IMG/VR virus record: IMGVR_UViG_3300030101_003929
Coordinates: 1,868-27,094 of that record
Reading direction: 5' to 3' (one strand)
DNA from: a virus
Length of the DNA stretch: 25,227 nucleotides
The position numbers and the translations under genes were made by a program. Below, piece after piece: positions 1-22,192 of the stretch. Every line of letters starts with the position of its first letter. Position 1 is the stretch's first letter. The notes beneath the pieces are model-generated. The model was not told where the DNA came from. It worked only from the letters and a program-made list of their open reading frames with translations, and did no database searches.

Positions 1-37
1 CCAGCCCTAACGATAAAAGTAAAAAAAATAAACGCAT
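1..37 (-). CDS. Partial gene start with signal-peptide-like N-terminus
   Basis: An ATG lies 2 bases after the csgG stop codon on the same strand. The 12 codons available read MRLFFLLLSLGL and are then cut by the window edge. One Arg followed by an unbroken hydrophobic run looks like the start of a Sec signal peptide or a membrane anchor. The tight spacing suggests co-transcription with csgF-csgG. It could be another curli-system component, a secreted substrate or an unrelated exported protein; the visible part cannot decide. Confidence 0.5.
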   Translation of the reverse strand, partial: MRLFFLLLSLGL

Positions 38-39
38 AA

Positions 40-885
40 TTATTCCATATATTGCCAATAACTCTTCTCTACACCTTGCGCTATAATATCTACAATACCA
101 GTTTCTATGGCTGCTTGCAAAGCGATAGACTTGCTCTCATTCATAGCATTACCGCTTTCAAACTCTACAAGCTTAGTGCCCTCTGCTATATATCTGAAGA
201 AATCATTTGAAAGACCAACTGATAAAATAGTTTTGGTTGTAAGGTTTTCTAACAGTATTTCACCTGTAGAAACAGATACAACACGCATTGAAACTATCAC
301 AGTATCTTCTCTATACTGCTTGCTGTTACCTATACCTAAGTATCTGGCACCTATACCTCCTGTTAGCAGGTTTGTATTGTAATCTTGGATTGCACCTTCT
401 AGTATCAAGCCAGCAAAAAGCAAAGGCATTTGTTGTTCGTCTTCATCAAACTTTTCTCTTGTAGATCTTATTATCTGTCTTTCACGAGTAACGTGATCTA
501 TTCCTACTCTTTCAACTACTCTGAAAAATTTAGATTGTTTCAGGGCTCTTATAACATAAGCTTCTGGTGCCTGCGTCAAAGCAGAACTAAAACTAGCGTA
601 ACCATCAATAGATTTGCGTTGTCCTGTTGCATCAGGAAAACTATAGACTGCGACTACAGGCCTAGCTGATGGTAATCGTAGTTCTTTGATCGCATCAGTT
701 ACTGGCTCATTTATAAAAGCAGACTTAGAAAAACATTGTGCTTCACCTATTATGGTTACTACATCTTTATAGTCGTTGTTAGGATTGGTTAGGCAGGGTG
801 ATATGTATTCTAAGTGCGTGGCACAACTAGAAACCAAAGTCCCCAATAGGGATAGTGATAGTAGTTGTTTCGCCAGTTGTTTCAT
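40..885 (-). CDS. csgG: CsgG-like curli secretion channel lipoprotein
   Basis: CsgG is the outer-membrane lipoprotein that assembles into a nonameric channel for curli subunits (type VIII secretion). This 281-aa protein, close to the E. coli length (277), starts with a lipoprotein signal: hydrophobic residues 8-18 and a lipobox V-S-S-C with the lipid Cys at 21. Residues 160-222 match E. coli CsgG very closely, including GGIGARYLGIG, RVVSVSTGEI and TTKTILS, and residues 252-263 include AIETGI. The constriction-loop region near residues 92-102 keeps a Phe (F99), but by my alignment the Tyr and Asn of the E. coli constriction are not in their usual places. The start is fixed by the signal peptide and lies inside csgF, a 59-base overlap. 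I see no clear ribosome site, so translation may be coupled to csgF. Family assignment is firm; its role in a phage is unknown. Confidence 0.93.
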   Translation of the reverse strand: MKQLAKQLLSLSLLGTLVSSCATHLEYISPCLTNPNNDYKDVVTIIGEAQCFSKSAFINEPVTDAIKELRLPSARPVVAVYSFPDATGQRKSIDGYASFSSALTQAPEAYVIRALKQSKFFRVVERVGIDHVTRERQIIRSTREKFDEDEQQMPLLFAGLILEGAIQDYNTNLLTGGIGARYLGIGNSKQYREDTVIVSMRVVSVSTGEILLENLTTKTILSVGLSNDFFRYIAEGTKLVEFESGNAMNESKSIALQAAIETGIVDIIAQGVEKSYWQYME

Positions 886-1303
886 TAAATATAGTCATTG
901 TAATATTTATACCGTCAGTCGTCCAAGTTATGAGGTTATCAAACAAAGTGAAAGAACCTTCATCAGCTGGGTTTTCGCCAAACAGTTGATCTACTAATTG
1001 CCTGGACAGTTGTGCATAAACTCTCGATTCAAAGTTTCTTAGAAATCTGGCTAGAGTTGTATTGTCAGCATCTCTTTCTAATTCATCTTGTAGAGCTTTA
1101 ATTTCTGCACGTAAAGCTTCTCTTCTACTAAATTCTTGCTCGTCTATAGTTAGGTAATGTTGTGAAGTGCCAACGCCTGAAAATGCAGGTGATTTAAATT
1201 TGAATTTTATTTCGTCGGCGAGGACAGGAAGCATTAAGATTGGGATTAAGTATATTGCGCAACCCATCCTCTTGTATTTATCTTTGTAATAATCGTTATT
1301 CAT
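827..1303 (-). CDS. csgF: CsgF-like curli secretion accessory protein
   Basis: CsgF binds inside the CsgG channel at the cell surface and couples secretion to curli nucleation. The 158-aa product has a charged start (KDKYKR), a hydrophobic core at about residues 14-28 and a VLA/DE cleavage site. The predicted mature N-terminus, EIKFKFKSPAFSG, matches the E. coli CsgF N-terminus, which is the part that plugs CsgG. The C-terminal half keeps the helix (NFESRVYAQLSRQLVDQLFG) and the strand pattern DGINITMTIFNETTGE. A more upstream ATG at 1351 exists in frame. I chose 1303 because GGAG lies 9 bases upstream and the signal peptide then has normal length. Its ATG overlaps the stop of the preceding mini-gene (ATGA). 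The middle section (about 44-80) is charged and helical, unlike E. coli. Confidence 0.88.
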   Translation of the reverse strand: MNNDYYKDKYKRMGCAIYLIPILMLPVLADEIKFKFKSPAFSGVGTSQHYLTIDEQEFSRREALRAEIKALQDELERDADNTTLARFLRNFESRVYAQLSRQLVDQLFGENPADEGSFTLFDNLITWTTDGINITMTIFNETTGETTTITIPIGDFGF

Positions 1304-1401
1304 AAAACTAAACTCCAAAAGCCTATACAGAAACTGACTATCAAAATCCAAGCTGTCAGCTTATACCAGTCTAATCTGTATCTAGTCTTTTCTTTGATCA
1401 T
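1300..1401 (-). CDS. 33-aa single-pass membrane protein
   Basis: This short frame begins with MIKEKTRYRLDWYKL, a strongly basic N-terminus, and continues with a hydrophobic segment from about residue 16 to the end (AWILIVSFCIGFWSLVL). It starts inside the last codons of the upstream coiled-coil membrane gene, and its TGA stop overlaps the csgF start codon as ATGA. This double coupling and the clear membrane topology argue that it is real. No strong ribosome site is visible (GACAGAG only). Tiny membrane proteins of this kind occur in phage lysis regions, but I recognise no family. Confidence 0.62.
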   Translation of the reverse strand: MIKEKTRYRLDWYKLTAWILIVSFCIGFWSLVL

Positions 1402-1732
1402 CTCTGTCAGCCTTAGCAATTTTGTTACTGTCTATAAGTTGTGGCACTCCCAATATAGTTTTAATTAAAGTATCTTGTCTTATTATTTCGTTATCTAAAC
1501 TTCTTACCCTATCTATTAAGGCTACTAAAATACCGTGTTGCGAGTCAAGTTTAGTGCCAAGTCTTTGCTCCATAGCGCTTATTTGTTCTGCTACTTTTTC
1601 ATCAACGACATCTAGTTTGTTTTCCATACCGTCAACAATCTTCATTATTAGTTTATAGATGAACCATCCGAGTCCAATAGCAGCAGCTATCGGGAAACCT
1701 AGTTGTTGAATTATTGTTACTACTTCTTGCAT
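1382..1732 (-). CDS. Single-TM coiled-coil protein, lysis-region type
   Basis: The 116-aa product has one membrane segment at about residues 8-31 (LGFPIAAAIGLGWFIYKLIM). A long amphipathic region follows (about 33-100) with heptad-like spacing: MENKLDVVDEKVAEQISAMEQ. The tail is charged. A membrane anchor plus coiled coil is typical of small proteins next to phage holins (XhlA-like by shape, not by sequence). It lies between the 3-TM holin-like gene and the mini membrane gene. There is no Shine-Dalgarno before the ATG; instead the 10-bp arm of a long inverted repeat ends 7 bases upstream. Function is inferred from position and topology only. Confidence 0.75.
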   Translation of the reverse strand: MQEVVTIIQQLGFPIAAAIGLGWFIYKLIMKIVDGMENKLDVVDEKVAEQISAMEQRLGTKLDSQHGILVALIDRVRSLDNEIIRQDTLIKTILGVPQLIDSNKIAKADRDDQRKD

Positions 1733-1739
1733 GATAAAA

Positions 1740-1807
1740 GAGTAGTCTGATGATCCCCTGGTTTTGTATGGAAACCGATGAGCTTTACGCTAGTCAACAG
1801 ACTACTC
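1740..1807 (-). repeat. 10-bp inverted repeat, possible structured RNA or attenuator
   Basis: The arms GAGTAGTCTG and CAGACTACTC (1740-1749 and 1798-1807) are perfectly complementary across a 48-base loop. Read on the minus strand, the stem begins at the holin stop codon, ends with TTTTATC, and then meets the next ATG. The loop can form two inner helices, GGTTT/AAACC and a short AGC/GCT, giving a three-way-junction shape. It could act as an intrinsic attenuator or a translational control element between the holin-like gene and the csg genes. Confidence 0.55.
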
Positions 1808-2275
1808 GTCCTTTTTATGTGATGCTCCAAAATAAAAGGATATGACTGCACTTGCCAAACCTCCTAAATAACCTAACACTAGGTTAATTAAAGCTTCACT
1901 ATTCTGTTCAGGCGGTTGTATTGTTACTAAAAATATATAACCCATAAACCCACCAATAACTACTACACCGAGAAGTTTAGATGTCCAGTCACTACTAAAA
2001 GTTTTTCTAGCATCTTGTAGGTCTTGTGTTTCTAATTTAAAAACATCAACCTCTAACTCTTTCATTTGTTTTTCAAAGTCTAGCTCTGCTTTTTTTATTT
2101 CTGCTAGCTGTTGTGGTGATGCTTGTTGCACAGCTTTCTCTACTGCGCCCTTATTATTAGGCACGCCAAGTTTGTCAGCTAACATACTCATAGCTGCGTT
2201 GCCCATAGGCCCACCTAACGCTGTTCCGATTGTAGGTGCTACTGCTCCTACTAATACTTTTAATTTGTCTAACAT
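1802..2275 (-). CDS. Holin-like protein, 3-TM gene-transfer-agent type
   Basis: This 157-aa protein has an N-terminal hydrophobic Gly/Ala-rich stretch (about 6-22), a charged helical middle (about 45-95), and two membrane segments at about 101-120 and 129-150. It ends in a short basic/acidic tail, SHKKDE. The last segment (YLGGLASAVISFYFGAS) and the overall pattern resemble the family called holin of 3TMs for gene-transfer release. Such proteins are thought to permeabilise the inner membrane so that lysis can proceed. It overlaps the nuclease gene by 7 bases. No endolysin or spanin gene is visible in this window. Confidence 0.7.
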   Translation of the reverse strand: MLDKLKVLVGAVAPTIGTALGGPMGNAAMSMLADKLGVPNNKGAVEKAVQQASPQQLAEIKKAELDFEKQMKELEVDVFKLETQDLQDARKTFSSDWTSKLLGVVVIGGFMGYIFLVTIQPPEQNSEALINLVLGYLGGLASAVISFYFGASHKKDE

Positions 2276-21529: not shown

Positions 21530-21744
21530 TGTCGGTAATTTGGATAAAAGACAAGTTGTCTAAATACTTACGAGAATCTCGTCAAAGTATCAATGACACA
21601 ATGTTGGGTGGTGTTAAAGATATCAGCCAATATGAATTTTTACGAGGACAATATACAGCTCTGGTCCAAGTAGAAAGTGAATTAAGAGAGCTGCTAGGAA
21701 AGGTTATAGAAGATGACGAAACAGAACAAGGTGATAGTTCCTGA
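21529..21744 (+). CDS. Small coiled-coil protein of virion module
   Basis: The 71-aa protein is helical: WIKDKLSKYLRESRQSINDT near the start and YTALVQVESELRELLGKVIE near the end form likely amphipathic helices, with an acidic tail. It overlaps the GroES-like gene by 32 bases. Short helical proteins between portal and capsid genes are frequent in marine podoviruses, but their roles are unknown. Confidence 0.72.
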   Translation: MSVIWIKDKLSKYLRESRQSINDTMLGGVKDISQYEFLRGQYTALVQVESELRELLGKVIEDDETEQGDSS

Positions 21745-22192
21745 TCACGTTGCAAAACAAGTAGAAGAACAAAACAAAGAAGCAGGAGAAAAAGTTGATG
21801 AAGCTTATGTTCCTGAAGACACAAGAGTATTAGACCCCACACTTTTAGAAAAATCGGTTTTAGAAAGAATGCCACAACCTACAGGTTGGCGTATTTTAAT
21901 TTTACCATTTCAAGGTATGGGCGTATCTAAAGGCGGTATTCATTTATTACAATCATCAGTTGATAGAGAAACATTAGCTACAGTTTGTGCTTATGTAGTA
22001 AAAATGGGTCCACTTTGTTACAAAGACGCTAAGTTTGGTAACAAATCTTGGTGCAAAGAAAAACAATGGGTATTAATTGGCCGTTATGCTGGTGCTAGAT
22101 TCAGACTCGGTGATGATGCAGAGTGCAGAATTATCAATGACGATGAAGTGATAGCAACCATACATGATCCAACCGATATCGTTGCAGTATAG
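21713..22192 (+). CDS. Phage GroES-like co-chaperonin
   Basis: This 159-aa protein has a charged N-terminal extension (1-55) and a Cpn10-like domain (56-150). It shows GWRILILPF (58-66), a mobile-loop equivalent GMGVSKGGIHLLQSS (68-82), ATVCAYVVKMGP (89-100) and VLIGRYAGARF (120-130), then strands ending VIATIHDP. These follow the GroES order: first strand, mobile loop with GGI, the V-x-x-V-G-P strand, and the final E-x-x-I-A. The loop reads I-H-L where GroES has I-V-L. Like T4 gp31 it may cap host GroEL to fold the capsid protein; its place between portal and capsid genes fits. A ribosome site AGGAAAGG lies upstream. Confidence 0.82.
   Translation: MTKQNKVIVPDHVAKQVEEQNKEAGEKVDEAYVPEDTRVLDPTLLEKSVLERMPQPTGWRILILPFQGMGVSKGGIHLLQSSVDRETLATVCAYVVKMGPLCYKDAKFGNKSWCKEKQWVLIGRYAGARFRLGDDAECRIINDDEVIATIHDPTDIVAV

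Follow-up and report, generated by a model that had tools for sequence, protein, structure and literature searches.

Genes for curli secretion in a phage genome raise the question of what a virus would pass through the outer membrane of its host, and to what end. The question is posed here by the left end of the window, by which we mean the whole stretch of DNA analysed (25,227 nucleotides, bases 1868-27094 of the 27,094-base IMG/VR marine phage record IMGVR_UViG_3300030101_003929). An initial annotation, made from the letters of the window alone, identified csgF and csgG there, saw no CsgA, CsgB or CsgE, and proposed an outer-membrane pore used for lysis, entry blocking or export of a phage protein. 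It also mentioned, correctly, that csgG had been noted in marine phages: csgF and csgG were first reported in pelagimyophages (PMC7029224, 2020), csg genes were then described in the OM43 phage Melnitz together with a lysis-pore proposal (PMC9004378), and complete modules with CsgA/B, FecR, a cyclase and a "histidine kinase" (HK) were found in podophages and myophages (PMC9599517, 2022).

Because complete phage modules have been published (PMC9599517), the central finding is a known one: the locus is the type VIII secretion (curli) module of SAR11 and OM43 phages, described between 2020 and 2022. Three points were not found in the open-licence literature: the neighbourhood of lysis genes in relatives, a small membrane protein that lacks a kinase domain and accompanies only csgFG among 50,697 phage records, and a structured leader RNA.

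The secretion channel and its putative substrate

The window begins at an assembly gap, a run of 10 Ns that ends exactly at its first base, and the record holds 1867 more bases on the left, which encode, in order, a curlin-repeat protein, a FecR-domain protein and the start of a CHASE2-type cyclase. The lack of CsgA and CsgB is thus true inside the window only, since its edge cuts the operon at the N gap. The third frame that had been noticed 2 bases past csgG is a further exported gene, as had been supposed: its ATG lies at 35-37, and it is the curlin-repeat gene (Table 1). An orphan pore with no substrate is rejected, as the curlin gene sits immediately beyond the window edge.

Table 1. Features at the left end of the window
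Feature	Position	Strand	Length	Description
Curlin-repeat protein gene, first codons	1-37	-		Remainder at G000:C1 1192-1904, broken by the 10-N gap
csgG	40-885	-	281 aa	Outer-membrane curli secretion channel lipoprotein; PF03783, E 5.5e-46; phrog_20175
csgF	827-1303	-	158 aa	Channel-plug/adaptor; PF10614, E 2.4e-16; phrog_35372
holA	1382-1732	-	116 aa	Opens the module; a single membrane helix at the N-terminus, followed by coiled coil
Structured leader RNA	1733-1806	-	74 nt	Three-way junction directly upstream of holA, between holB and holA
holB	1802-2275	-	157 aa	Two hydrophobic segments in the C-terminal part; phrog_1544 (unknown function); candidate holin

Pfam matches confirm the csgF-csgG pair, and the terminase, portal and capsid genes on the same record bear out that it is phage-borne; the PHROG families of both genes are listed as "unknown function". 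The csgG product matches solved E. coli CsgG chains over residues 68-278 with an E value of about 6e-40 (phmmer, PDB). The lipobox and conserved segments first noticed in this one protein held up across 28 phage CsgGs, in which the lipobox cysteine C21, GGxGARYLGIG and VSVSTGE are invariant or nearly so, and the CsgF match was confirmed together with its FKFKSPAFSG N-terminal peptide. Between csgF and csgG there is an overlap of 59 bases. The N-terminal arm of the phage CsgG is longer than that of E. coli CsgG, and it carries two invariant cysteines besides the lipid cysteine, C31 and C51, which may possibly form a disulfide.

The absence of CsgE extends well past the window, as it was found in none of 14 records searched, the whole genomes of HTVC008M and Melnitz among them, and it is likewise missing from the published phage type VIII modules (PMC9599517, PMC7029224). 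Because E. coli work cited in PMC7029224 found CsgE not to be essential, and because the published phage modules do without it, we do not take it as defining; a module lacking CsgE is, judged by its sequence, a variant of the type VIII secretion (curli) system.

Intact versions of the genes beyond the gap occur in near-identical contigs, among them L005, which has a CsgG 99% identical to that of the window and a complete curlin gene (L005:9082-9798). Pfam's Curlin_rpt family finds a match, with E 1.3e-8 at best, in 25 of 28 relatives, the copy in the window's own record giving a weak match (E 0.0017) under the Pfam cut-off, and a profile of the family finds the annotated curlins of HTVC008M (E 2.9e-25) and Melnitz (E 1.2e-23). 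Strict QxGxxN curlin motifs number only two per protein. The protein bears a signal peptide, and its AlphaFold model is all-beta (pLDDT 80, pTM 0.77) with no match in the PDB at E below 0.001 in a fold search. We infer that it would be the natural substrate of the CsgG/CsgF channel.

A putative sensor pair

The cyclase gene is cut by the end of the record after 57 residues, so that its catalytic part was read in relatives: CHASE2 and catalytic cyclase domains are present in 26 of 26 cyclases, and D415, K455, D459, N528 and R532 are all invariant. We take these residues to be the metal aspartates, the substrate lysine and the transition-state Asn and Arg of class III cyclases. The FecR-domain protein has a signal-like start (PF04773, E 6.8e-13 in the window's record), and its domain recurs in all 30 module FecR proteins; it is of the periplasmic type only, the cytoplasmic anti-sigma part being unmatched. 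In the structural model the N-terminal domain is confident and residues 200-361 are not. All 30 proteins end in I-x-[IV]-x-Q followed by 1-3 residues, which resembles the last curlin-like repeat, and this C-terminus could conceivably dock on a fibre; as a curlin-like repeat proper it was rejected, since Pfam finds no Curlin_rpt there.

There is a bacterial precedent for such a pair in the BiofilmReg operon of Burkholderia, which is required for biofilm and in which a gene for an exported LysM-FecR protein lies beside a CHASE2 sensor, as here (PMC5192318). On the strength of that precedent, the analogy suggests that the phage FecR and CHASE2 proteins may sense the envelope or export. The output differs: it is a histidine kinase and response regulator, without CsgG, in BiofilmReg, and a cyclase in the phage module.

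Conservation of the module

A single scan of viral contigs (IMG/VR) returned 206 relatives, 80 of which were kept, and across these the gene order is holA-csgF-csgG-curlin-fecR-cyclase. Wherever the contig has room for it, each partner gene is present: holA in 68/68, csgF in 73/73, curlin in 71/71, fecR in 62/62 and cyclase in 49/49, counts that show the integrity of the module and not its frequency among phages, since the loci were picked by CsgG similarity. In a few loci one more gene is inserted between fecR and cyclase, and holA-like genes number two in some. Pairwise dN/dS lies between 0.015 and 0.25 for all six genes (several dS values are saturated), so all six are under purifying selection and maintained as working proteins; holA has the lowest value of the module in most pairs. 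In two of the loci with two holA-like genes, iron-sulphur scaffold-like genes (IscU/IscA-like by eye) lie just upstream of the module (L030:7478-8502 and L072:8119-8899).

The first gene of the module

The published account places a "histidine kinase" at the first position of the module (PMC9599517), and holA is, from its position, probably the gene so called. A reading as a histidine kinase has no support from domain searches: of 32 members of the family encoded just before csgF, none matched HisKA or HATPase. The protein has one hydrophobic window by hydropathy and a likely coiled coil, and its matches to YvrJ are weak. Among 50,697 phage records, holA was found only in HTVC008M and four Melnitz isolates, which are also the phages with csgG; besides these, csgG in that collection was seen in a single 1.5-kb "Salmonella phage" fragment. 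The idea that holA serves the HTVC023P group at large as a holin was rejected, since it has no match in HTVC023P, HTVC027P or 023Pt_psg01. The holB gene neighbours the module in the window's clade.

A structured leader RNA before holA

The leader RNA folds with -24.1 kcal/mol (z -3.4), and 9 of its 19 pairs have changed on both sides, 97.7% of cells being paired against 23-50% when slid. Rfam has no match for it. Sense-strand matches to the full-length model, R1, are confined to the interval from holB to holA. When viral contigs were scanned with a pattern, 28 matches were obtained, 22 of them in holB-side or module contigs, with holA next wherever the sequence continues, and the other 6 with neither module genes nor a match to the model. 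As the pattern was built from these same phages, the scan supports specificity and is not exhaustive; the leader is apparently specific to the curli-module clade of the window, where it might possibly act as an attenuator or riboswitch. The open-licence literature yielded no mention of a structured RNA ahead of holA. Other clades have a different hairpin at this place; in another clade a long-loop inverted repeat of different sequence, AAGGGCTGGT...ACCAGCCCTT, is found before holA (L024:5900-6020, L041:1880-1995 and similar places).

Relation to known phages and to the E. coli system

The terminase (TerL) and portal of the window phage are closest to those of HTVC027P, 023Pt_psg01, DSL-LC04 and HTVC023P. 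DSL-LC04 has a gammaproteobacterial listed host; the host of the window phage is probably SAR11-like. With 023Pt_psg01, TerL is 62%, capsid 66% and portal 45% identical and the packaging and head genes stand in the same order, whereas the module was not found in the 48 kb of that phage examined. The replication genes differ from the HTVC023P type, and the window phage therefore belongs to the same broad group and not to the same clade.

The published type VIII modules of HTVC023P-type pelagipodophages and of pelagimyophages have the order seen here, small gene(s) called HK followed by CsgF, CsgG, CsgA/B-like protein, FecR and cyclase (PMC9599517), the cyclase of our record being cut at its end. 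The window's clade differs from them in having one holA, no second curlin gene in intact relatives, and the RNA leader. The myophages HTVC008M (SAR11) and Melnitz (OM43) carry the whole module, including curlin, FecR and cyclase; unlike the window, they have two holA-like genes and a second curlin gene before the cyclase, and their CsgG is 45-48% identical to that of the window over 72% of the query. With csgBAC/csgDEFG of E. coli the module shares the CsgG channel, the CsgF plug motif and a substrate with curlin repeats; CsgE was not found in it, and FecR, the CHASE2 cyclase and holA are added.

What the module may do

Among the functions first proposed for the pair, export of a phage protein is the best supported, and because the substrate gene is conserved in every relative with room for it, we consider this the most likely: the phage probably encodes a type VIII (curli) export module that exports a curlin-like surface protein during infection. 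The bare pore pair first pictured gives way here, as genes for curlin, FecR and the CHASE2 cyclase come next, and we prefer a role as a surface fibre to that of a pore alone. Module proteins would reach the periplasm of the infected cell by the host Sec system; with CsgG as the channel across the outer membrane and CsgF docked in it by way of the conserved N-terminal peptide, the curlin-like protein would be handed on to the cell surface with no CsgE as gate, there to build a fibre or coat. The FecR-domain protein, itself exported, and the CHASE2 adenylate cyclase would together serve as a sensor pair in the periplasm, converting the state of export or of the envelope into cAMP. The surface protein may serve the phage by holding sibling cells, by excluding other phages or by acting at lysis; in the Melnitz study, neither cytometry nor TEM showed clumping (PMC9004378).

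Lysis, another of the early proposals, draws indirect support from the gene neighbourhood in relatives. It would make holA holin-like, with CsgG/CsgF and the curlin-like protein weakening the outer membrane or timing its breakage together with spanins and endolysin, and with the CHASE2 cyclase as timer; we regard it as possible, if rather unlikely. Of the 49 loci that extend 900 bases or more past the cyclase, 17 have a GH24 endolysin gene on the same strand within that distance (20 loci in total when shorter margins are included), in some of them overlapping the cyclase by 4 bases. In five loci (L049, L064, L065, L066 and L079) two small genes intervene, which in L065 and L049 match the Rz-like spanin families phrog_739 and phrog_812 (E 1.7e-11 and 1.8e-18 in L065, 9.8e-12 and 2.4e-14 in L049). 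An XhlA-like ORF with coiled coil and membrane helix precedes holA in L048 and L054, and in the phage contig L084 holB and the endolysin gene stand side by side after fecR. Mapped on the CsgG tree, the state of endolysin adjacency has changed four times or more. PMC9599517 does not use the words lysozyme, endolysin, spanin or holin, and no report of a csg module beside lysis genes was found in the open-licence literature.

Against this, no endolysin or spanin gene adjoins the module in the window's clade, where a gene for a protein of roughly 1,087 aa converges on the cyclase, and adjacency elsewhere may merely reflect shared late transcription. Ordinary endolysins are encoded in 12 of 21 module-bearing phage records, and hence no substitute for lysis is needed. 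Nor does the lysis reading account for the curlin substrate and FecR, both strictly conserved. The lysis role proposed for Melnitz was argued from the absence of other curli genes (PMC9004378), a premise contradicted by the Melnitz record, where two proteins are annotated as curlin repeat proteins and FecR and a cyclase are listed too. The lysis and export readings could coexist, for example if the fibre is made late. A fuller combination, in which the module would be a functional part of the lysis programme, opening with a holin-like protein found only with csgFG under the clade's leader RNA, closing in several lineages with genes for spanin-like proteins and endolysin, and tying curlin export to lysis timing through the CHASE2 cyclase, strikes us as unlikely. 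Two published premises are in any case called into question, that Melnitz is without genes for fibre subunits and that a histidine kinase stands first in the module, and the conserved ends of the module, holA and the cyclase, with spanin-like and endolysin genes adjoining in some lineages, make gene-by-gene testing possible.

It has also been proposed that the ungated CsgG channel admits larger nutrients or siderophores into the infected cell (PMC7029224, PMC9599517), with which the lack of CsgE agrees. Such an uptake pore seems very improbable to us, as the conserved CsgF, curlin and FecR genes are unaccounted for, and because FecR matches the periplasmic-type domain only, with no cytoplasmic anti-sigma match, a reading in terms of iron regulation is weak. 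Misassembly of bacterial DNA onto a phage contig, which the N gap at the window start might suggest, can be rejected with near certainty: on the right of the gap, csgF, csgG, holA and holB run on into phage genes without a break, G+C is uniform (0.371 in the csgFG part, 0.376 in the rest of the record), dozens of independent contigs and two cultured phages show the same arrangement, with the same junctions in the contigs, and the nearest genuinely bacterial operon found has just 44% identity and no fecR, cyclase or holA nearby.

Carriers and origin

One scan of genomes for a bacterial ancestor found only Afifella and phage contigs binned in metagenome-assembled genomes (MAGs), and the CsgG tree, with its long branches, does not fix a donor. 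Among 247 genomes of the order of the Pelagibacter MAG G001, the only strong CsgG is that of G001 itself, on a contig with the phage module, and three others give weak partial matches. Contigs filed under Pelagibacter and Maricaulis MAGs (L083, L084 and L085) bear the phage-type module, L084 together with endolysin and structural genes; because these contigs carry it, csgG in the Pelagibacter and Maricaulis MAGs is most likely phage-derived.

Two smaller observations concern individual sequences. The 1.5-kb record OR851715.1, named Salmonella phage S.Kent 1-2-1, has a csgG-like gene with 36% identity and is probably a mislabelled bacterial fragment. Within the head-gene block of the window, a GroES-like protein (Cpn10, a weak match) is encoded at 21713-22192 on the plus strand, as in 023Pt_psg01.
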